Shown in pieces: positions 11,396-58,902 of a stretch of 64,000 bases of DNA. Source of the stretch: Ruminococcus sp. (GTDB lineage: Bacteria; Bacillota; Clostridia; Oscillospirales; Ruminococcaceae); NCBI GenBank assembly GCA_017626015.1, contig JAGAJO010000009.1:208295-272294 (forward strand), written 5' to 3'. Position 1 is the stretch's first letter; each line of letters opens with the position of its first letter. The notes beneath the pieces were generated by a model, which had not been told where the DNA came from, did no database searches, and saw nothing but the letters and a program-made list of their open reading frames with translations. Position numbers and translations under genes: made by a program.

Positions 11396-11424
11396 TTGAC
11401 TAATTAAAAGAAAAATGGTATGAT
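11396..11424 (+). promoter_or_regulatory. Sigma-A-type promoter of lysA
   Basis: TTGACT (11396-11401), a 17-bp spacer and TATGAT (11419-11424). The ATG at 11420 lies inside the -10 box, which rules it out as the lysA start. Confidence 0.8.
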
Positions 11425-11473
11425 ATATTATATATTTAATGAACAATTCAATCGGAAAGAGGAAGAATTGGCG

Positions 11474-12751
11474 ATGAAAAAACCATTTATTACAAAACAG
11501 CAGGCTGAGGAAATATCAGCTAAATATCCTACACCCTTTCATATTTATGATGAAAAGGGAATAAGGAAGAATGCCAGAGATCTATATAAGGCGTTCAGTT
11601 GGAATAAGGGTTACAGAGAGTATTTTGCTGTAAAAGCGACTCCGAATCCCTACATACTTAAAATTTTACAGGAAGAAGGCTGCGGAGTAGATTGTTCGTC
11701 CCTTACTGAACTTATGATGAGCGAATGCTGCGGTTTTTCCGGCAGCGATATTATGTTTTCTTCCAATGTTACGCCGCAGGAGGATTATCTTAAAGCGAGG
11801 GAGCTTGGAGCGTATATAAATCTGGACGATTTCACGCATATTGAATATCTTGACAAGCTCTGTGGTATTCCCGAAACAATTTGCTGCCGTTTTAATCCCG
11901 GCGGACATTTCTCTATAGAAAACCAGATCATGGACAACCCCGGCGAGGCAAAGTACGGCTTCACAAAAGAGCAGCTTATCGAGGGCTTTAAGCTCCTTAA
12001 AAGCAAGGGTGCAAAGTATTTCGGCTTACACGCTTTTCTTGCTTCAAATACCGTTTCAAATGCGTATTATCCGAAGCTTGCACGAATCCTTTTTGAACTT
12101 GCCGTTGAGCTTAAGGAGAAAACCGGTGCTGACATTAAATTTATCAATCTTTCCGGAGGAATAGGAATTTCATACGAGCCTGATAAGCCGCAGAATGATA
12201 TTTTTGCCATCGGTGAAGGCGTGCATAAGGCGTTTGACGATATACTTGTTCCTGCGGGAATGGGGGACGTTGCTATTTTTACCGAGCTTGGCAGATATAT
12301 GCTTGCTCCTTACGGACATCTTGTGACCACCTGTGTTCATCAGAAACACATATACAAGGAATATATAGGCGTAGACGCCTGCGCCTGCAACCTTATGAGA
12401 CCTGCGATGTACGGCGCTTATCATCATATTACGGTTCTTGGCAAGGAAAATGCGCCATGTGACCATAAATATGACGTGACCGGAAGTCTTTGCGAAAACA
12501 ACGATAAATTTGCAATTGACAGAATGCTTCCTGAGATCAATATAGGGGATATTCTTGTTATTCACGATACAGGAGCGCACGGATTTTCTATGGGATATAA
12601 TTACAACGGAAGACTTCGCTCTGCCGAGCTTCTGCTTTGCGAGGACGGAACAGTAAAGCTTATCAGACGTGCGGAAACTCCCGCCGACTATTTCGCTACA
12701 TTTGATTTTACTGGAATCATGGACAAGTACCTCGATAAAAACGGTAAATAG
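11474..12751 (+). CDS. lysA: Diaminopimelate decarboxylase-like PLP enzyme
   Basis: LysA removes CO2 from meso-diaminopimelate to give L-lysine. The 425-aa fold type III PLP enzyme has the Schiff-base Lys in YFAVKATPNP near residue 55, the glycine-rich phosphate site LSGGIGI near 235-241, ELGRYMLAPYG near 275-285, and the substrate-side GSLCEN near 338-343 where the family Cys activates catalysis. The frame opens at 11420, but that codon overlaps the -10 element. The ATG at 11474 follows AAAGAGGAAG and begins MKKPFITKQQ. It is monocistronic between its own promoter and terminator. Related decarboxylases for other amino acids cannot be fully excluded. Confidence 0.85.
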   Translation: MKKPFITKQQAEEISAKYPTPFHIYDEKGIRKNARDLYKAFSWNKGYREYFAVKATPNPYILKILQEEGCGVDCSSLTELMMSECCGFSGSDIMFSSNVTPQEDYLKARELGAYINLDDFTHIEYLDKLCGIPETICCRFNPGGHFSIENQIMDNPGEAKYGFTKEQLIEGFKLLKSKGAKYFGLHAFLASNTVSNAYYPKLARILFELAVELKEKTGADIKFINLSGGIGISYEPDKPQNDIFAIGEGVHKAFDDILVPAGMGDVAIFTELGRYMLAPYGHLVTTCVHQKHIYKEYIGVDACACNLMRPAMYGAYHHITVLGKENAPCDHKYDVTGSLCENNDKFAIDRMLPEINIGDILVIHDTGAHGFSMGYNYNGRLRSAELLLCEDGTVKLIRRAETPADYFATFDFTGIMDKYLDKNGK

Positions 12752-12854: not shown

Positions 12855-12912
12855 ATTATATTGAGTTGGTATGCTTAAACATACCCGAATAATCGGAAAG
12901 GTAAGGAATATT

Positions 12913-13191
12913 ATGGATACTAATTTGGTGAAATATCTTGCCGAGCTTGGAAAGCTTGAATTTTCCAGTGAAGAGCTTGAAAAGACTGCGGAGGAAATGA
13001 CAGATATTATTGCCCTTATGGATACCGTCAAGGAAATTGACATAACCTACGATGATCTGAAGGACAACCATAACGTTTATCTTGACAATCTGAGAACGGA
13101 CGAGCCTAAGGCTTCCATGCCTACCTCCAAGGTGCTTCAGAACGCTGAGAATACAAATAACTGCTTTGTCGTTCCAAAGGTAGTTGAATAA
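12913..13191 (+). CDS. gatC: Asp/Glu-tRNA amidotransferase subunit C
   Basis: GatC is the small scaffold subunit that wraps around GatA and GatB in the amidotransferase that converts Asp-tRNA(Asn) and/or Glu-tRNA(Gln) to the amide form. The protein is 92 aa, the normal size. It opens with VKYLAELGKLEFSSEELE, the typical helical pair, and ends with the extended FVVPKVVE tail. The frame opens 42 bp upstream, but the ATG at 12913 follows AAAGGTAAGG and begins MDTNLVKYLA. It is the first gene of the operon and lies 25 bp before gatA. Confidence 0.92.
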   Translation: MDTNLVKYLAELGKLEFSSEELEKTAEEMTDIIALMDTVKEIDITYDDLKDNHNVYLDNLRTDEPKASMPTSKVLQNAENTNNCFVVPKVVE

Positions 13192-13216
13192 TTTAAACAG
13201 AAGGGTAGTGTGTGAT

Positions 13217-14665
13217 TTGGACATTTCTTCAATGAAGCTGAGAGATATGCGCAGGGCGTTAGACGAAAAGAAGATCTCTGCGCCCGAGCTTGCAAAGGAA
13301 TACCTTGAAAATATAAACAAATACGATGAAAAGCTTGAATGCTATATAACAGTAACTGCCGATAAGGCTGCGGCACAGGCAGAAAAGGCTCAGGAAATTA
13401 TTAATAAAGGAGAGGCTAAGGCTCTTACGGGAATCCCTCTTGCAATAAAGGACAATATCTGTACGGAGGGCGTAAGGACTACCTGCGCTTCAAGGATCCT
13501 TGAGAACTTCGTTCCGCCTTATAATGCAACGGTTATGGAAAAGCTGGAACATCAGAATATTGTCATGCTTGGTAAAACATCAATGGACGAGTTTGCCATG
13601 GGCGGTTCTACTCAGACATCGGCATTTAAAAAGACAAAAAATCCATATAACGTTAATTGCGTTCCCGGAGGATCTTCCGGAGGTTCAGCTGCGGTCGTTG
13701 CGGCGGATCTTGCTCCGGCTGCTCTCGGTTCCGATACCGGAGGTTCTATCAGGCAGCCCTCGGCGTTCTGCGGAGTGACGGGTATAAAACCAACATACAG
13801 CCGTGTGTCACGTTACGGTTTGGTAGCCTTCGCTTCTTCGCTGGATCAGATCGGACCTATCGCCAAGGATTCACACGACTGTGCGATCCTCCTTAATGCG
13901 ATCTGCGGTTTCGATCCCCACGACGGTACAAGCTCTGTAAACGAGGTCCCTGATTTTACGGCAAAAATCGGGAAACCGGTAAAGGGTATGAAGATTGCAT
14001 TGCCCAAGGAGTTCTTTGCGGATGGTATCGACAGCGAAGTCAGAGATGCTGTCTTAAAGGCTGCCGACGAATACAAGGCTATGGGAGCCGAGCTGGTGGA
14101 ATGTTCCATGCCGTCACTTAAATATGCCGTCCCATGTTATTATCTGCTTGCCTGCGCTGAAGCCGCTTCCAATCTTTCAAGATATGACGGTATTAAGTAC
14201 GGCCACAGAGCCAAGGGTGCCGACAGCTATGAGGAGCTGGTGATCAGATCACGCTCCGAGGGCTTCGGCGAAGAGGTAAAAAGAAGGATACTTTTAGGAA
14301 ACTATTGTCTTTCCAGCGGATATTACGACGCTTATTACAGAAAGGCTCTTGCTCTGCGCCAGCTCATAAGAAAAGAATATGACGATATTTTTGAGAACTG
14401 CGATGTGATCCTTACGCCCACGACCCCGACGGTAGCTTACAGTCCTGAAATAACTGCCGATCCGGTACAGATGTATCAGGCGGATATCTGCACTGTCACA
14501 GTAAACATAGCAGGTCTTCCCGCAGTGTCAACACCCTGCGGATACGATAAAAACGGAATGCCCATAGGACTTTCAATAATCGGAAGAAAGTTTGACGAGC
14601 AGACCGTTCTTCAGATTTCAGATGCCTACGAGCAGGGATTCACTCCCGTTGCGCCGAAGCTTTAA
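13217..14665 (+). CDS. gatA: Asp/Glu-tRNA amidotransferase subunit A
   Basis: GatA is the glutaminase subunit: it releases ammonia from glutamine and feeds it to GatB. The 482-aa amidase-signature protein has the catalytic triad Lys78 (LAIKDNI), cis-Ser153 (GGSSGGS) and nucleophile Ser177 (TGGSIRQPS), with the usual 24-residue spacing between the serines. The frame is open from a TTG at 13184 inside gatC. The TTG at 13217 follows AGAAGGG by a normal distance and gives LDISSMKLRDMRRA, so it is preferred; the ATG at 13232 is an alternative. It ends 15 bp before gatB. Confidence 0.93.
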   Translation: MDISSMKLRDMRRALDEKKISAPELAKEYLENINKYDEKLECYITVTADKAAAQAEKAQEIINKGEAKALTGIPLAIKDNICTEGVRTTCASRILENFVPPYNATVMEKLEHQNIVMLGKTSMDEFAMGGSTQTSAFKKTKNPYNVNCVPGGSSGGSAAVVAADLAPAALGSDTGGSIRQPSAFCGVTGIKPTYSRVSRYGLVAFASSLDQIGPIAKDSHDCAILLNAICGFDPHDGTSSVNEVPDFTAKIGKPVKGMKIALPKEFFADGIDSEVRDAVLKAADEYKAMGAELVECSMPSLKYAVPCYYLLACAEAASNLSRYDGIKYGHRAKGADSYEELVIRSRSEGFGEEVKRRILLGNYCLSSGYYDAYYRKALALRQLIRKEYDDIFENCDVILTPTTPTVAYSPEITADPVQMYQADICTVTVNIAGLPAVSTPCGYDKNGMPIGLSIIGRKFDEQTVLQISDAYEQGFTPVAPKL

Positions 14666-14680
14666 AGGAGGAAAAGACAA

Positions 14681-17548
14681 ATGGAAAAATGGAAAACCGT
14701 CATCGGTCTTGAAATCCATGCCGAGCTGCTTACAAAATCAAAAATTTTCTGCACCTGCTCTGCCGAATTCGGAGGAAAACAGAACACAAGATGCTGTCCT
14801 GTTTGTACAGGTATGCCGGGTACGCTTCCTGTTATAAACCAGACTGCCGTTGAATATGCGGTAAAAGCGGGATATGCTCTTAACTGCGAAATAAACAAGT
14901 TTTCGGTATTTGACAGAAAGAACTACTTCTATCCCGATCTTCCCAAAGCGTATCAGATCTCACAGCTTTACAGACCTATTGTCGGTGCAGGATATGTGCC
15001 GATCAACGTAAACGGAGAGAAAAAAAATATAAGGATAAATCACATTCATCTTGAGGAAGACGCAGGAAAGCTTGTTCACGATGATTTCAACGGTATATCC
15101 ATGGCGGATTATAACCGCTGCGGAATTCCCCTTATTGAGATAGTTACCGAGCCTGACATTTCCTCTGCGGAGGAGGCTATGGCGTTTGTTGAGCAGATCT
15201 CTCTGCTTTTGCAGTATGCTGGAGTGTGCGATTGTAAAATGGAACAAGGCTCACTGAGATGTGACGTTAACATTTCCCTTATGAGACCTGACGCAAAGGA
15301 GTTTGGTACAAGAGCTGAGATAAAAAACATTAACTCCATAAAATCAGTGGGAAGGGCTATAAAGTACGAGGAAAAGCGTCAGGCTCTTTTACTTGAAGCC
15401 GGTAAAAAGGTCGTTCAGGAGACCAGACGTTACAATGCCAACAGAGATAAGACTACCTCGATGCGTACAAAGGAAAACGCTAACGATTACCGTTATTTCC
15501 CGGAGCCTGATATCCTTCAGGTAAATCTTACTGACAGTCAGCTGGAGGAGATAAGGGCAAAGCTCCCCGAAATGCCTGCTAAGAGAAAGCAAAAGTATAT
15601 GGATTATGGTATTTCTGAGGTCGATGCTAATATTCTTATACAGTCCAAGGTCATATCCGACTTTTTCGAGTCCGTTGTTAAATCATACAATAATCCGAAA
15701 AGCATTGCAGTTTTTGTGCTGGGCGAATTTATGAGACGTGTAAATCTGGGTGAAATAGATGTCAATAACATCACCTTTACACCGGAGGATTTTGCTTCGC
15801 TTGTTGAAATGGCTGACACTGAAAAGGTTTCTAAAAATGACGCCAAGGCGATTTTCAGAGAAATGGTCGAAAGCGGCGGAAAACCTATGGATATCGCTTC
15901 AAATAAGGGTATGCTCATCACTGTGGATACCACAAAGGTAGAAACGGGGATTTGCGAGATTCTTGAGAAAAATGCGGCTCAGGTCGCACAGTATAAAAAC
16001 GGTGAGAAAAAAGTATTCGGATTCATTATGGGGCAGTGTACAAAAGCCCTTAAGGGCATAGCTACTCCCAAGATCATAAAAGAGATCCTTGAAAGCAAGC
16101 TGGAGGAAGCGTCTGTCGAGACTGAGGAAAAGACCGGAAACGCCGCAGCTGAGAGCAGCGTTATCGACGCTTCAAGGCTGACGAAGTATGAAAACACCGA
16201 CAAATATACTCCTGCTGCTGATGGAGATATGCTTATGATCGGTACTGATACCCTTAAGAAGGAATTTACTCTGGAGCAGGCTGTAAGCAGCATGGGCAAG
16301 GACGTTGAATTTTCCGGCTGTGTTCATAAGATCAAAAAAATGGGAAGTATTTCCTTCATACTGATAAGAACATCAAGAAACGTTTTCCAGACTGTTTATT
16401 CTGCTGACAAGTGTAGTGATTCCATTGAGGGTCTACGAGAAGGATTTTTCGTAAATGTAAAGGGTACTGTCAATAAAAATGACAGGGAATTTACAGGTGT
16501 TGAGATCGTGCTTAAATCCATTAAGCTTATTTCAACTTCCGCAGCAGAAACTCCTTTAAAGATCTCTCAGGGCAAGCTTAACTGCACTATTGAGGTAAAC
16601 CTTGACAATAGAGCGACTTCTCTCAGAAATCCCTATGAGCGTGCTATTTTCAAGCTTCAGGAGGGTCTTGTTCAGGGTATGCATAGATTTATGCAGGCTA
16701 ATAATTTTACAGAGATACATTCTCCGAAGATCGTTGCTCAGGGTGCAGAGGGCGGAGCTAACATATTTGCTCTTGACTATTTTGGAAAGCATGCTTTCCT
16801 CAATCAGTCTCCTCAGTTTTATAAACAGACAGCAGTGGCATTCTTTGACAGGGTCTATGAGATAGCTCCAGTTTACAGAGCGGAAAAGCACGCAACTTCA
16901 CGTCATATCAATGAATATATTGGTCTTGATTTTGAAATGGGATATATAGACAGTATGTATGACGTAATGGCGATGGAGATCGCAATGCTCAAATCAATGT
17001 TCTCATATATCAAAGAAAATTATCAGAATGAGATCAGGATACTTGAGGCTGATATTCCCGAGATCGGTGAGGTTCCGTCTGTCAAGTTTGCAGACGCTAT
17101 CAGGCTTCTCAGAGGAGGAGAGAGCAGCGGAAAGAAGTTTGATCTTGATCCTGAGGATGAAGTCAACCTTGGAAAATATGCAAAGGAAAAGTATAATTCC
17201 GACTTTATATTCGTTACACACTTCCCGTCGTCAAAGCCGCCTTTCTACGCAATGAATTCAAGAGAGGATCCAAGGGAAGCGTACAAGTTCGATCTTCTTT
17301 TCAGAGGTCTTGAGATCACCTCGGGCGGACAGCGTATTCACGATTACGATGAACAGGTAGCTAAGATGAAAGCTCAGGGACTTGATCCTGATGATTTCAA
17401 AAATTATCTTGAGGCTCACAAGTACGGCTTGCCGCCACACGGAGGTCTTGGCATAGGACTTGAAAGACTGCTTATGAAGCTGCTTAATAAGAACAACATC
17501 CGTGAGACTTCTATGTTCCCGAGAGATATTAACAGACTTATACCATAA
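14681..17548 (+). CDS. gatB-aspS: GatB fused to archaeal-type (non-discriminating) aspartyl-tRNA synthetase
   Basis: One uninterrupted 955-aa frame holds two enzymes. Residues 1-477 are a complete GatB: the GLEIHAEL start, four cysteines in CTCSAEF and CCPVCTG for zinc, the YFPEPDI strand, and the C-terminal YqeY-like tail ending near AMQ-type GFIMGQCTKALKG and KIIKEILESK. Residues 478-516 are a Glu/Ala/Ser-rich linker. Residues 517-955 are an archaeal/eukaryotic-type AspRS: OB-fold (SGCVHKIKKMGS near 546-557), motif 2 YRAEKHATSRH at 732-742 and motif 3 GLGIGLERLL near 923-932. His549 aligns with Trp26 and Phe604 with Lys85 of discriminating Thermococcus AspRS, which fits a relaxed enzyme charging tRNA(Asn) with Asp. 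GatB then phosphorylates and amidates it. GGAGG precedes the ATG. A GGAG at 16223-16226 lies 8 nt before in-frame ATG 16235 (Met519) and could give a 437-aa free AspRS. Confidence 0.93.
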   Translation: MEKWKTVIGLEIHAELLTKSKIFCTCSAEFGGKQNTRCCPVCTGMPGTLPVINQTAVEYAVKAGYALNCEINKFSVFDRKNYFYPDLPKAYQISQLYRPIVGAGYVPINVNGEKKNIRINHIHLEEDAGKLVHDDFNGISMADYNRCGIPLIEIVTEPDISSAEEAMAFVEQISLLLQYAGVCDCKMEQGSLRCDVNISLMRPDAKEFGTRAEIKNINSIKSVGRAIKYEEKRQALLLEAGKKVVQETRRYNANRDKTTSMRTKENANDYRYFPEPDILQVNLTDSQLEEIRAKLPEMPAKRKQKYMDYGISEVDANILIQSKVISDFFESVVKSYNNPKSIAVFVLGEFMRRVNLGEIDVNNITFTPEDFASLVEMADTEKVSKNDAKAIFREMVESGGKPMDIASNKGMLITVDTTKVETGICEILEKNAAQVAQYKNGEKKVFGFIMGQCTKALKGIATPKIIKEILESKLEEASVETEEKTGNAAAESSVIDASRLTKYENTDKYTPAADGDMLMIGTDTLKKEFTLEQAVSSMGKDVEFSGCVHKIKKMGSISFILIRTSRNVFQTVYSADKCSDSIEGLREGFFVNVKGTVNKNDREFTGVEIVLKSIKLISTSAAETPLKISQGKLNCTIEVNLDNRATSLRNPYERAIFKLQEGLVQGMHRFMQANNFTEIHSPKIVAQGAEGGANIFALDYFGKHAFLNQSPQFYKQTAVAFFDRVYEIAPVYRAEKHATSRHINEYIGLDFEMGYIDSMYDVMAMEIAMLKSMFSYIKENYQNEIRILEADIPEIGEVPSVKFADAIRLLRGGESSGKKFDLDPEDEVNLGKYAKEKYNSDFIFVTHFPSSKPPFYAMNSREDPREAYKFDLLFRGLEITSGGQRIHDYDEQVAKMKAQGLDPDDFKNYLEAHKYGLPPHGGLGIGLERLLMKLLNKNNIRETSMFPRDINRLIP

Positions 17549-55646: not shown

Positions 55647-56354
55647 ATGGAAAATCTCACCCCGAATATCCTTGTTGTTGATGATGACAGGGATATAGTA
55701 AGAGCAATAGCTAAGCTGCTGGAAATGGAGGGCTACAATACTGTCAAAGCGTATGACGGGATCGATGCTCTTGAAAAGCTTAGTGGGAACAGCATACAGC
55801 TTATTCTTATCGACGTTATGATGCCCAAGCTTGACGGGCTTTCGGCTATGATGAAGATAAGAGCGACTAAAAATATACCTATCCTGGTGCTGTCGGCTAA
55901 ATCGGAGGATACAGACAAAATTCTGGGACTTTCCATGGGTGCAGACGATTATATAACCAAACCTTACAATCCTATGGAGCTTGTTGCACGGGTAAAAAGC
56001 AATCTTCGCAGGTATATGCAGCTGGGTTCGATCGACACAAAAGACAAAACGGACGTTATAAAAATAGGCGGACTTGAGCTTGACGTGGAGGCAAAGCTTC
56101 TTATGGCAGACGGCGAACCTGTCAAGCTCACCGCTACTGAACTTAAGATCCTTGAACTGCTTATGAGAAACGCAGGAAGAATTTTTTCTGCTGAGGAGAT
56201 CTATCAGAGAGTGTGGAACGAAGACGCCTACGCTGTGGAGAACACAGTTATGGTACATATCAGGCATATAAGGGAAAAGATAGAAATAAATCCCAAGGAG
56301 CCGAGATATCTTAAGGTGGTGTGGGGAATTGGGTATAAAATTGAAAAAATCTGA
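55647..56354 (+). CDS. OmpR/VanR-type response regulator
   Basis: A 235-aa response regulator with receiver domain (acid pocket VVDDDRD, phospho-acceptor Asp56 in LILIDVMMPK, Lys in VLSAKSED near 90). A C-terminal OmpR-type winged helix (residues 138-233) includes LTATELKILELLMRNAGRIF and VHIRHIREKIE. It resembles VanR-like regulators. It overlaps the kinase gene by 26 bp, so the two are translated together. No VanH, VanA or VanX genes are present. Confidence 0.92.
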   Translation: MENLTPNILVVDDDRDIVRAIAKLLEMEGYNTVKAYDGIDALEKLSGNSIQLILIDVMMPKLDGLSAMMKIRATKNIPILVLSAKSEDTDKILGLSMGADDYITKPYNPMELVARVKSNLRRYMQLGSIDTKDKTDVIKIGGLELDVEAKLLMADGEPVKLTATELKILELLMRNAGRIFSAEEIYQRVWNEDAYAVENTVMVHIRHIREKIEINPKEPRYLKVVWGIGYKIEKI

Positions 56355-58902
56355 TAAAAAAACCTCGCTTATATGGAAGAAAATATTCGTCAGGCCTCTG
56401 AGGTTCGCTGCGCTGGTACTTGCCTGCGTCTTTGCGGGAATTTCGATCACAAGCTATAAGTATGCCGAGTCCATAGGCATTGACGACTTTGAGCCCGATT
56501 ATCTGATATCCGATGAATACAGCCGTCAGAAAACAGAAATGTACGAGCAGCTGTGTGTGCTGTCCGCCTGCTATCTGAGCAATGTGGACAACGAATGGAA
56601 CTTTGTTGGCGAAAAAAATCTGTTGTCCGATTTTCTGTACTATATGGACTACAATAACTATAAGTATATGAAAACGGATAACGGGATACTGCCGGTATCC
56701 TCTATGTTTGATTACTATGTATCCTACGATAACGGCGGGAGCGAGGTACGTTATGTCACCAATATCGGCAACAGCCATACGCTGGAGAATATGAGCGAGG
56801 ACGAACGTATCGAGTACTTCAAGAAAAACTATAGTAGTTATCTCCTGAGAAGAAACGGCGTGGTAACAAGCGACATAGCGTCCTCGGGGAACATTCGCTA
56901 TTACCAGTATATCAATGCAGAAACAGGCTTTTACGGCGGATATTACGGCGACTATAATGATTATTATTACGGCTTTGAACCCTATGAAGAGACCTATCCC
57001 CGTGAATTTGTCCCCATAGGAAGCTGGTACTATGACAACTACGGCAGATATTTTTACTGCTTCGGAAACGAAGAGCCAATAAGGTTTTTCATATATCCCA
57101 AGAATACCGAAAAGGGACGGATCGCCCGGGAAGGACTGGTGAACGTTCTTACCAATGAAAATACCGGGAGGGAAATTTCCAACGAATGGGACGGTATCCT
57201 CAACGTTGACGAGGTACCGGAAGATGAAGAAGGAAAGGAAACAAATACAGTCGTATATGAGGTGTTTCTCGAAGAAACCGAAAGATATGAAGCTACTCCG
57301 GGAGACGACGCTCCTATAACCGTTTTTATAAGTCCAAAGGCGGACGTGCTTGAAGCTGCGGCGGCAAGCTATAAAAGCATAGTGAGTGTTTACAAGAATA
57401 CAAAGCTTTTATTTATAGTAAGTATAGTGCTTATGGCATTGTGTGCTGTATACCTGTTGGCTTCCTGCGGGTTTGAGGAGGTCACCGAGGAGGGTATCAG
57501 ATGGAGCAAGCCTGCGTTTTTCGGCAAACGGTCGGTACTGCTTTACTGCACTGTGGGACTTTTTTATTTACAGCTTTGCGGTACACTGCTGTTTAGGTAT
57601 TATAATGATATAACCTACTATGTAAATTCCCTATTAAGCGGAAAGTATGTGGGCTATATATTTTTCGGCCTTCTGTGCAGCGTTTTATCTTTCCCTGTTT
57701 TCTTTATTGCAATGCAGCTTGCCGAAAAGGTCAAGACCCGTACGATCAAGGACGGTTTACTTACTCTTCGCATTTTCAGGAAAATAAAAAATGTATATCT
57801 TAACAGTGAATTATATGCAAATTATCAGAAACAGTCAATGGGAGATAAGCTGAAACACCGTTCGTTAAAGGTCATAGGCGTATGCGTATTTGTGGGATTG
57901 TCGTTTTTCTTTTCGATCGCTGTCGGAAATGACGTGGAGATCTTCTTTGTCTGCGCCATTTTGGGATTTATAGCGGTAATGTACCTTGAAATAAAGAATA
58001 TTCTCAGTTACAGGGATCTGTCCAAGATCAGCAGACAGATAAAGCTTATCGGTACAGACGAGCCGTTTGAGGAGAAAATTTCCGAGAGATCGGCAGTTTA
58101 TAACGACAGCTTAACGCTTACTCAGATCTCAGAAAAGGTAAAAAAATCGGTTGAGGAGCAGATCAAGTCGGAGAGAATGAAAATAGAGCTTGTGGCGAAT
58201 GTTTCCCACGATCTGAAAACGCCGCTGACATCAATTATCGGCTATGTTGATCTGCTGAAAAAGCTGGAGCTTGACGATGAGGCAAGCAGCTATGTTCAGA
58301 TACTTGATAAAAAAGCCCAGAAGCTGAAAGGTATTGTTTCTGACGTATTTTCACTTGCAAAGGCAACCAGCGGTATTGAAGTAAACCTGGCAAAGCTTGA
58401 TTTTGTAATGCTGTTTAATCAGGCTTTTGCCGACGCTGACGATAAGATCAAGGCAAGCGGAAAAATAATAAAAACCGATATTTATGAACCCACTGCAATG
58501 GTAATGGCTGACGGAGACAAAATGTACAGGGTTTTTCAGAACCTTCTTGACAACGCTCTGAATTATTCTCTGGAGGGTTCGAGGATCTTCCTTGAGATAA
58601 GAAAATCCGGAGACAGTATAAAATTTATTACGAAAAATATATCGTCATCTCCTATTGATTTTACCGCTGAGGAAATTGTTGAACGTTTTGTCCGTGGGGA
58701 TAAATCACGTACCGACGGCGGAAACGGACTCGGACTTTCCATTGCAAAAAGCTTTACCGAAGCCTGCGGAGGAGAATTTGAGATCCGTCTTGACGGAGAT
58801 ATGTTCAAAACGATAGTTTCACTGCCGATATATAAAGAGGAGCAGGAAGATAAAGAAAAGCAGGTAGAAACGGATATCCAGGCTGTAATATCGGATTCAT
58901 AA
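56329..58902 (+). CDS. Membrane histidine kinase, VanS-like core with large sensor
   Basis: An 857-aa sensor kinase. It has one N-terminal transmembrane helix (about residues 22-43), a large Tyr/Asp-rich extracytoplasmic region (about 45-350), five to six further transmembrane helices between about 360 and 560, then the kinase core. The phospho-acceptor His627 lies in NVSHDLKTPLTSIIGY, the N box in FQNLLDNALNYS near 735-746, and G boxes in GNGLGLSIAKSF near 798-809. The extra membrane block between sensor and kinase is unusual for VanS. The TTG at 56329 follows AAGGTGGTG; TTG 56341 is an alternative start. The ligand is unknown. Confidence 0.88.
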   Translation: MGIKLKKSDKKTSLIWKKIFVRPLRFAALVLACVFAGISITSYKYAESIGIDDFEPDYLISDEYSRQKTEMYEQLCVLSACYLSNVDNEWNFVGEKNLLSDFLYYMDYNNYKYMKTDNGILPVSSMFDYYVSYDNGGSEVRYVTNIGNSHTLENMSEDERIEYFKKNYSSYLLRRNGVVTSDIASSGNIRYYQYINAETGFYGGYYGDYNDYYYGFEPYEETYPREFVPIGSWYYDNYGRYFYCFGNEEPIRFFIYPKNTEKGRIAREGLVNVLTNENTGREISNEWDGILNVDEVPEDEEGKETNTVVYEVFLEETERYEATPGDDAPITVFISPKADVLEAAAASYKSIVSVYKNTKLLFIVSIVLMALCAVYLLASCGFEEVTEEGIRWSKPAFFGKRSVLLYCTVGLFYLQLCGTLLFRYYNDITYYVNSLLSGKYVGYIFFGLLCSVLSFPVFFIAMQLAEKVKTRTIKDGLLTLRIFRKIKNVYLNSELYANYQKQSMGDKLKHRSLKVIGVCVFVGLSFFFSIAVGNDVEIFFVCAILGFIAVMYLEIKNILSYRDLSKISRQIKLIGTDEPFEEKISERSAVYNDSLTLTQISEKVKKSVEEQIKSERMKIELVANVSHDLKTPLTSIIGYVDLLKKLELDDEASSYVQILDKKAQKLKGIVSDVFSLAKATSGIEVNLAKLDFVMLFNQAFADADDKIKASGKIIKTDIYEPTAMVMADGDKMYRVFQNLLDNALNYSLEGSRIFLEIRKSGDSIKFITKNISSSPIDFTAEEIVERFVRGDKSRTDGGNGLGLSIAKSFTEACGGEFEIRLDGDMFKTIVSLPIYKEEQEDKEKQVETDIQAVISDS

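Follow-up and report, generated by a model that had tools for sequence, protein, structure and literature searches.

Here we describe a gene of gut bacteria (Ruminococcus) that joins, in a single polypeptide, the two enzymes of the indirect pathway to asparaginyl-tRNA (Asn-tRNA): the amidotransferase subunit GatB and an archaeal-type aspartyl-tRNA synthetase (AspRS2, gene aspS2). The gene occupies positions 14681..17548 (+) of a 64,000-nucleotide stretch of DNA, referred to as the window, from Ruminococcus sp. (GenBank assembly GCA_017626015.1, contig JAGAJO010000009.1, positions 208,295 to 272,294 of the forward strand) and encodes a protein of 955 residues. Elsewhere, the AspRS and the GatCAB amidotransferase of this pathway are separate proteins. 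Judged from its sequence, the GatB-AspRS fusion is likely to be a covalently tethered asparagine transamidosome. Transamidosomes as such are known; what appears to be new here is a probable transamidosome with its two enzymes in one chain.

The reading of this gene as a fusion is supported by its open frame, by Pfam and NCBIfam models and by related genomes. The frame was confirmed on re-checking and a ribosome-binding-like AGGAGG, read from the sequence, lies 5′ of its ATG (14666..14671, +). The fused GatB belongs to an operon of the order gatC-gatA-gatB::aspS2 in which both partner subunits are identified by profile matches, namely gatC, the first gene (12871..13191, +, start codon provisional; Pfam GatC 42.5 bits, cut-off 23), and gatA (13184..14665, +, listed with a TTG start; TIGR00132 610.9 bits, cut-off 481). 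The two overlap by 8 bases, and 15 bases separate the end of gatA from the ATG of the fusion. The GatB half consists of a catalytic domain (residues 6-288, 14696..15544, +; Pfam GatB_N 406.6 bits) and a YqeY tail (residues 327-474, 15659..16102, +; Pfam GatB_Yqey 128.5 bits), both over the curated Pfam cut-offs, and scores 535 bits against the NCBIfam GatB model TIGR00133 (cut-off 314.8). Its CxC...CxxC cysteines C24, C26, C39 and C42, which we take to be zinc ligands, are invariant in 55/55 distinct fused sequences, the set used for all junction statistics below. In GatB proteins it is the tail that grips the tRNA elbow.

The AspRS half is equally recognizable. Its class II catalytic core (residues 638-949, 16592..17527, +) is defined by Pfam tRNA-synt_2 and a motif alignment; the tRNA-synt_2 match runs uninterrupted over this range and Pfam finds no GAD domain in the AspRS half. 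Motif 2 (R733, E735) and motif 3 (G924, G926, E928, R929) are invariant in an alignment of 41 sequences. The OB-fold anticodon-binding domain (residues 543-617, 16307..16531, +; Pfam and alignment) gives a Pfam tRNA_anti-codon match of 25.9 bits, just below the 27-bit cut-off, and is otherwise backed by the TIGR00458 match, which spans residues 539-955, and by a fold comparison in which archaeal and Thermus AspRS match the model from its residue 51-53 on. Against the models for aspartate--tRNA(Asn) ligases the C half scores 387.4 bits (TIGR00458, cut-off 368.4) and 520 bits (NF003483, cut-off 353). A first-pass annotation made from the sequence alone had described a 955-codon frame with two complete halves, a GatB with CxC...CxxC cysteines and YqeY tail and an archaeal-type AspRS with class II motifs 2 and 3; each of these elements is borne out, the GatB portion corresponding to residues 1-474.

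The fusion is conserved among relatives. A protein search of genome contigs, restricted to the best 80 of 145 relatives, yielded 78 distinct loci in order of their similarity to the fused query. A single frame holds both halves at 53 of these 78 loci (6 of the 53 cut by a contig end), a share that is not a frequency because the list leans towards the close kin of the query. At 23 loci gatB and aspS2 form two frames, and two loci are without an AspRS part: one leaves its contig in open frame (L072) and the other has a GatB stop followed by about 520 bases (L073). Among the fused loci are those of R. callidus ATCC 27760 (L071) and of a chromosome record of R. bicirculans 80/3 whose title reads 'complete sequence' (L009). 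Because relatives carry the same single frame on separate records, an assembly error or frameshift is ruled out. We also surveyed 297 genomes of the family to which the window belongs. An AspRS2 match over the curated TIGR00458 cut-off is present in 56, and in 27 of them it sits in a frame of 873-979 residues that also holds GatB, spread over 12 genus codes; this count omits 13 genomes, all unfused, with sub-cut-off TIGR00458 scores of 338-368 bits (27/69 if included). Thus related genomes do share the fusion, a point on which the first-pass annotation had staked its claim. The sequence nearest to that of the window is from a Ruminococcus genome (GatB 91 %, AspRS 92 % identity), and identities among fused proteins go down to 65 %.

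Within the genus code of the window the fusion occurs in G065 and G279 and not in G158 and G226. Both of the latter have AsnRS; G226 has GatB and no AspRS2-type match, and in G158 no GatB was found and no GlnRS over cut-off, its TIGR00458 match being only 36 % identical to the AspRS half of the fusion. At the level of the phylum, a sample of 398 genomes contains TIGR00458 matches over cut-off in 24 and at E 1e-80 or better in 105. Only two matching frames exceed 900 residues, those of the window's genome and of G352 (979 residues). We rejected the latter as a second fused lineage: the DNA there is rich in G+C and keeps a long frame open spuriously (971 residues from its start codon), and BLAST of the locus found no GatB. 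No fusion in a second lineage of the phylum was found among these 398 genomes, a thin sample.

The junction between the two enzymes has a structure of its own. The first-pass annotation had placed a 40-residue linker here; the linker stands, but not as a stretch that is flexible throughout, since about 20 variable residues are followed by a conserved arm that is predicted to be ordered. The variable part (residues 475-494, 16103..16162, +) is a hypervariable tether, acidic on average and 19-25 residues long in 55/55 fused sequences. The arm, N-terminal to the AspRS half (residues 495-527, 16163..16261, +), carries the motif LTxYxNxxxYxP at 500-511 and is seen only in fused proteins: T501 is conserved in 48/55, Y503 in 49/55, N505 in 47/55, Y509 in 46/55 and P511 in 54/55, and the motif occurs in 0/36 separate neighbours, some of these records being duplicated. 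An AlphaFold2 model of tether and AspRS, built from 57 sequences, has an overall predicted local distance difference test score (pLDDT) of 85.4, with values below 50 at residues 475-491 and about 93 at residues 495-524. This high confidence suggests that the arm would dock on the AspRS. In a fold comparison, the aligned part of eukaryotic AspRS and of LysRS rows takes in the arm from its beginning; that of archaeal and Thermus AspRS2 rows begins after it. The comparison suggests that the arm was gained together with the fusion, although aligned ranges alone show no homology.

The gene content of the window's genome, which is 99.48 % complete, fits a role of the fusion in Asn-tRNA formation. 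Its four PF00152 matches are accounted for by a bacterial-type AspRS, LysRS, the fusion and HisRS, and the genome thus shows no AsnRS by profile search; GlnRS over cut-off is likewise not found. Both the absence of asnS and the presence of a second, separate AspRS agree with what the tethered pathway had been expected to entail. One GluRS-type enzyme, named from its sequence, and two GatCAB operons are present. The second operon is a stand-alone gatC-gatA-gatB (L116:2246-5443, contig C14) whose GatB is about 44 % identical to the fused one, and may encode the Gln-serving set. An AsnB-type asparagine synthetase gene is also found, but free asparagine would lack an AsnRS that could attach it to tRNA. 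The tRNA-Asn of R. bicirculans has the U1-A72 pair that belongs to an Asn-transamidosome, and both tRNA-Gln genes of the window's genome (2/2) have it too. With neither AsnRS nor GlnRS found, and with a bacterial-type AspRS and a second GatCAB at hand, the fusion is likely the sole route to Asn-tRNA in this genome.

Such a route requires an AspRS that accepts tRNA-Asn. Work on the T. kodakarensis and D. radiodurans AspRS points to two positions, a His and a Pro position, as bearing on tRNA specificity. At the first, corresponding to T. kodakarensis Trp26, the fusion has His549, which fits the non-discriminating type, as in T. thermophilus AspRS2 (50/55 His and 5/55 Tyr among fused sequences). 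Its family, His549, the failure to find AsnRS and the presence of a separate AspRS together support a probably non-discriminating AspRS half, one that would put aspartate on tRNA-Asn.

We propose the following mechanism. The AspRS half would aspartylate tRNA-Asn to give Asp-tRNA(Asn), and the GatB half, in complex with the GatA and GatC that its operon encodes, would convert the tRNA-bound aspartate to asparagine. About 20 flexible residues would link the GatB tail to the ordered LTxYxNxxxYxP arm, holding the two enzymes close and at 1:1, and the mischarged Asp-tRNA(Asn) would be handed over prior to its release. Relatives of this AspRS are dimers; if the AspRS half is dimeric too, a particle would hold two GatCABs. 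This tethering is not exclusive, and where a second GatB is missing the same GatCAB must take Glu-tRNA(Gln) from free GluRS as well.

Several observations weigh against a transamidosome of this kind, or against its being dedicated to asparagine. The fused GatB had been pictured as serving Asn only, a view now weakened. On that view, GlnRS would be expected wherever a second GatB is missing. A second GatB exists in 16/27 fused genomes; in 10/27 no GatB other than the fused one and no GlnRS is found, the remaining genome (G213) being left out of the sole-GatB count since parts of its GatB_N match lie on two different contigs. Five of these 10 genomes are at least 97 % complete, the clearest being G113 (2 contigs, 99 % completeness). 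GlnRS over cut-off is found in 0/27 fused genomes and in 8/70 of all genomes searched. As sole GatB beside no GlnRS, the fused GatB of these 10 genomes must, going by gene content, serve Gln as well, amidating the Glu-tRNA(Gln) that a separate GluRS supplies. Across fused genomes the presence of a second GatB changes 7 times over 26 rows. The link to AsnRS is similarly qualified. AsnRS is present in 2/27 fused versus 17/29 unfused genomes (18 counting a fragmented gene in G194; raw Fisher p ~5e-5), but after correction for kinship only 2 independent pairs are left (sign test p=1), so that a tie between AsnRS absence and fusion is suggestive in raw counts and has no phylogenetic support. The two exceptions, G111 and G190 (loci L162 and L163), are fused and yet have a full AsnRS, both routes to Asn-tRNA coexisting there.

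Further points on the same side concern the tRNA, the AspRS and the junction. Of the 38 tRNA matches of the window's assembly, typed with ARAGORN, none is tRNA-Asn (one weak match gave no tRNA), and the R. bicirculans tRNA-Asn used as query gives only 75 % matches over 56-57 bases. In R. bicirculans this gene (L180:3591-3666) follows those for tRNA-Ala and tRNA-Ile at a distance of about 3.2 kb, a layout we take for a putative rRNA operon, and rRNA-operon repeats tend to drop out of draft assemblies. At the second specificity position, Pro/Lys, the fusion has Phe604, which is variable among fused sequences and uninformative. The arm motif is degenerate, its strict form TxYxNxxxYxP occurring in 36/55 and a relaxed form in 48/55 fused sequences, and the confidence of the full-length model (pLDDT 68) does not suffice for the relative placement of the halves. 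Finally, one fused gene (L148, genome G056) has a shorter junction of 42 residues, no arm motif and a long branch; it is possibly an independent or a degenerating fusion.

In unfused relatives gatB and aspS2 are mostly adjacent (on different contigs in G090 and G194), and in 5 of the 23 separate loci (L044, L050, L055, L060 and L061) the two frames abut in the same frame, so that loss of one stop codon would give the fusion. Fused GatBs cluster with GatBs that neighbour aspS2 (all but L176 of 30 such rows). Where fused genomes have a second, stand-alone GatB, it is a distant paralogue of the fused one (43-46 % identity). The GatB tree calls for 4 changes of the fused label, a 97-row AspRS tree for 3, and a 93-row and a 41-row AspRS tree for 2 each, and constraining the fused AspRS rows to one clade is marginally rejected (p-AU 0.041). 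The shared arm motif favours, provisionally, a single event with later splits or transfer; L148, which lacks the motif, may be separate.

This history would also suit a neutral fusion, in which a stop was lost between neighbouring operon genes, the result persisted for being harmless and the outcome is co-expression at 1:1, with a handover no better than that of an ordinary tRNA-mediated transamidosome. The 23 loci with separate neighbours, five of them abutting in frame, and the mere 2-4 tree changes are what such a loss predicts. However, a state that covers 12 genus codes and identities down to 65 %, with a fused-only arm whose T, Y, N, Y and P are kept at 84-98 % beside hypervariable residues, is not expected of it, and we regard it as unlikely. 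Much less probable is that the polypeptide is cleaved, or its AspRS also started internally, with free GatB and free AspRS as the active enzymes. The tether is predicted to be disordered and hence protease-accessible, and the window's linker has a GGAG 8 bases before Met519; yet start-like sites occur at 6/70 linker ATGs versus 68/1317 elsewhere in the frame, not a clear enrichment, and in the linker of only 6/55 fused genes, leaving a conserved internal AspRS start unsupported. We give least credence to an AspRS half that discriminates or serves tRNA-Asp, with Asn-tRNA made by another route. The specificity positions are only half diagnostic and the AsnB-type gene is there, but a 99.48 %-complete genome with no AsnRS, and with a bacterial-type AspRS available for tRNA-Asp, speaks against it.

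Beyond the tethered transamidosome itself, we put forward a fuller account at evenly balanced confidence: in relatives of Ruminococcus, loss of a stop codon would have given a permanent covalent Asn-transamidosome, refined by a short, variable tether and a new docking arm that holds the GatB tail next to the AspRS anticodon-binding domain. The indirect pathway could then be the only source of Asn-tRNA, with the same GatCAB still taking Glu-tRNA(Gln) from free GluRS where a second GatCAB is missing.

Other features of these loci were recorded. An Rfam scan of the window found no T-box or other known leader RNA over the gathering score, and no T-box was found in 9 further loci, including the second GatCAB operon of the same genome. 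Elsewhere, a NiCo riboswitch match (L053:1074-1170, 81.3 bits) precedes a pair of unfused gatB and aspS2 genes by about 4.9 kb. Directly before gatC is a diaminopimelate-decarboxylase-like gene (11420-12751; lysA 282.9 bits, below the cut-off of 297.9). At 56329-58902 of the window, an 857-residue frame shows a likeness to VanS-type histidine kinases over its C-terminal 290 residues (157 bits, far below the cut-off of 400); it probably encodes an ordinary sensor kinase whose N-terminal region is long.

The debate on whether transamidosomes channel mischarged tRNA has mostly drawn on complexes whose enzymes are separate chains. Here the fusion is natural and permanent, close relatives without it can serve as controls, and the tether can be cut or extended, which opens channelling to a direct test. 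The fusion also offers structural studies an enzyme of simple genetics, and illustrates how mischarging can turn into the only source of Asn-tRNA. That closeness within the transamidosome limits errors is a general idea with support in published work (PMC8406222, PMC8762117).

The first-pass annotation knew of no described fusion of this kind. For GatB-AspRS this holds, none being found in the titles, abstracts and passages of the open literature, with subscription papers mostly outside it; in its general form it holds less fully, as NCBIfam NF009460 (PRK12820) names a bifunctional AspRS/GatC, by its name likewise an AspRS with an amidotransferase subunit. That family differs in having a bacterial-type AspRS, and GatC instead of GatB. 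The window's protein scores 85.2 bits against it (cut-off 1379) and is not a member, while L001 of the same genome scores 576 bits over the AspRS part. Clostridium acetobutylicum has an extra AspRS and an extra GatCAB, for which the available passages mention no fusion; the window differs from it in having no T-box match. Other joined chains of indirect charging are known. In Mycobacterium smegmatis, GatC-GatA fusion mutants likewise join two products of the indirect pathway by stop-codon loss, but as laboratory mutants with raised mistranslation and no synthetase rather than as a conserved natural fusion (PMC7541841). SepRS with a ThrRS-type editing domain, and PSTK with aSelB, place steps of indirect charging in one chain for other amino acids and with other enzymes (PMC8762117). 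A close counterpart is the Asn-transamidosome of Thermus thermophilus (PDB 3KFU), composed of an archaeal-type non-discriminating AspRS (ND-AspRS), GatCAB and tRNA-Asn. There AspRS and GatB are separate chains; here, going by the sequence, the AspRS is joined to the C-terminus of GatB.
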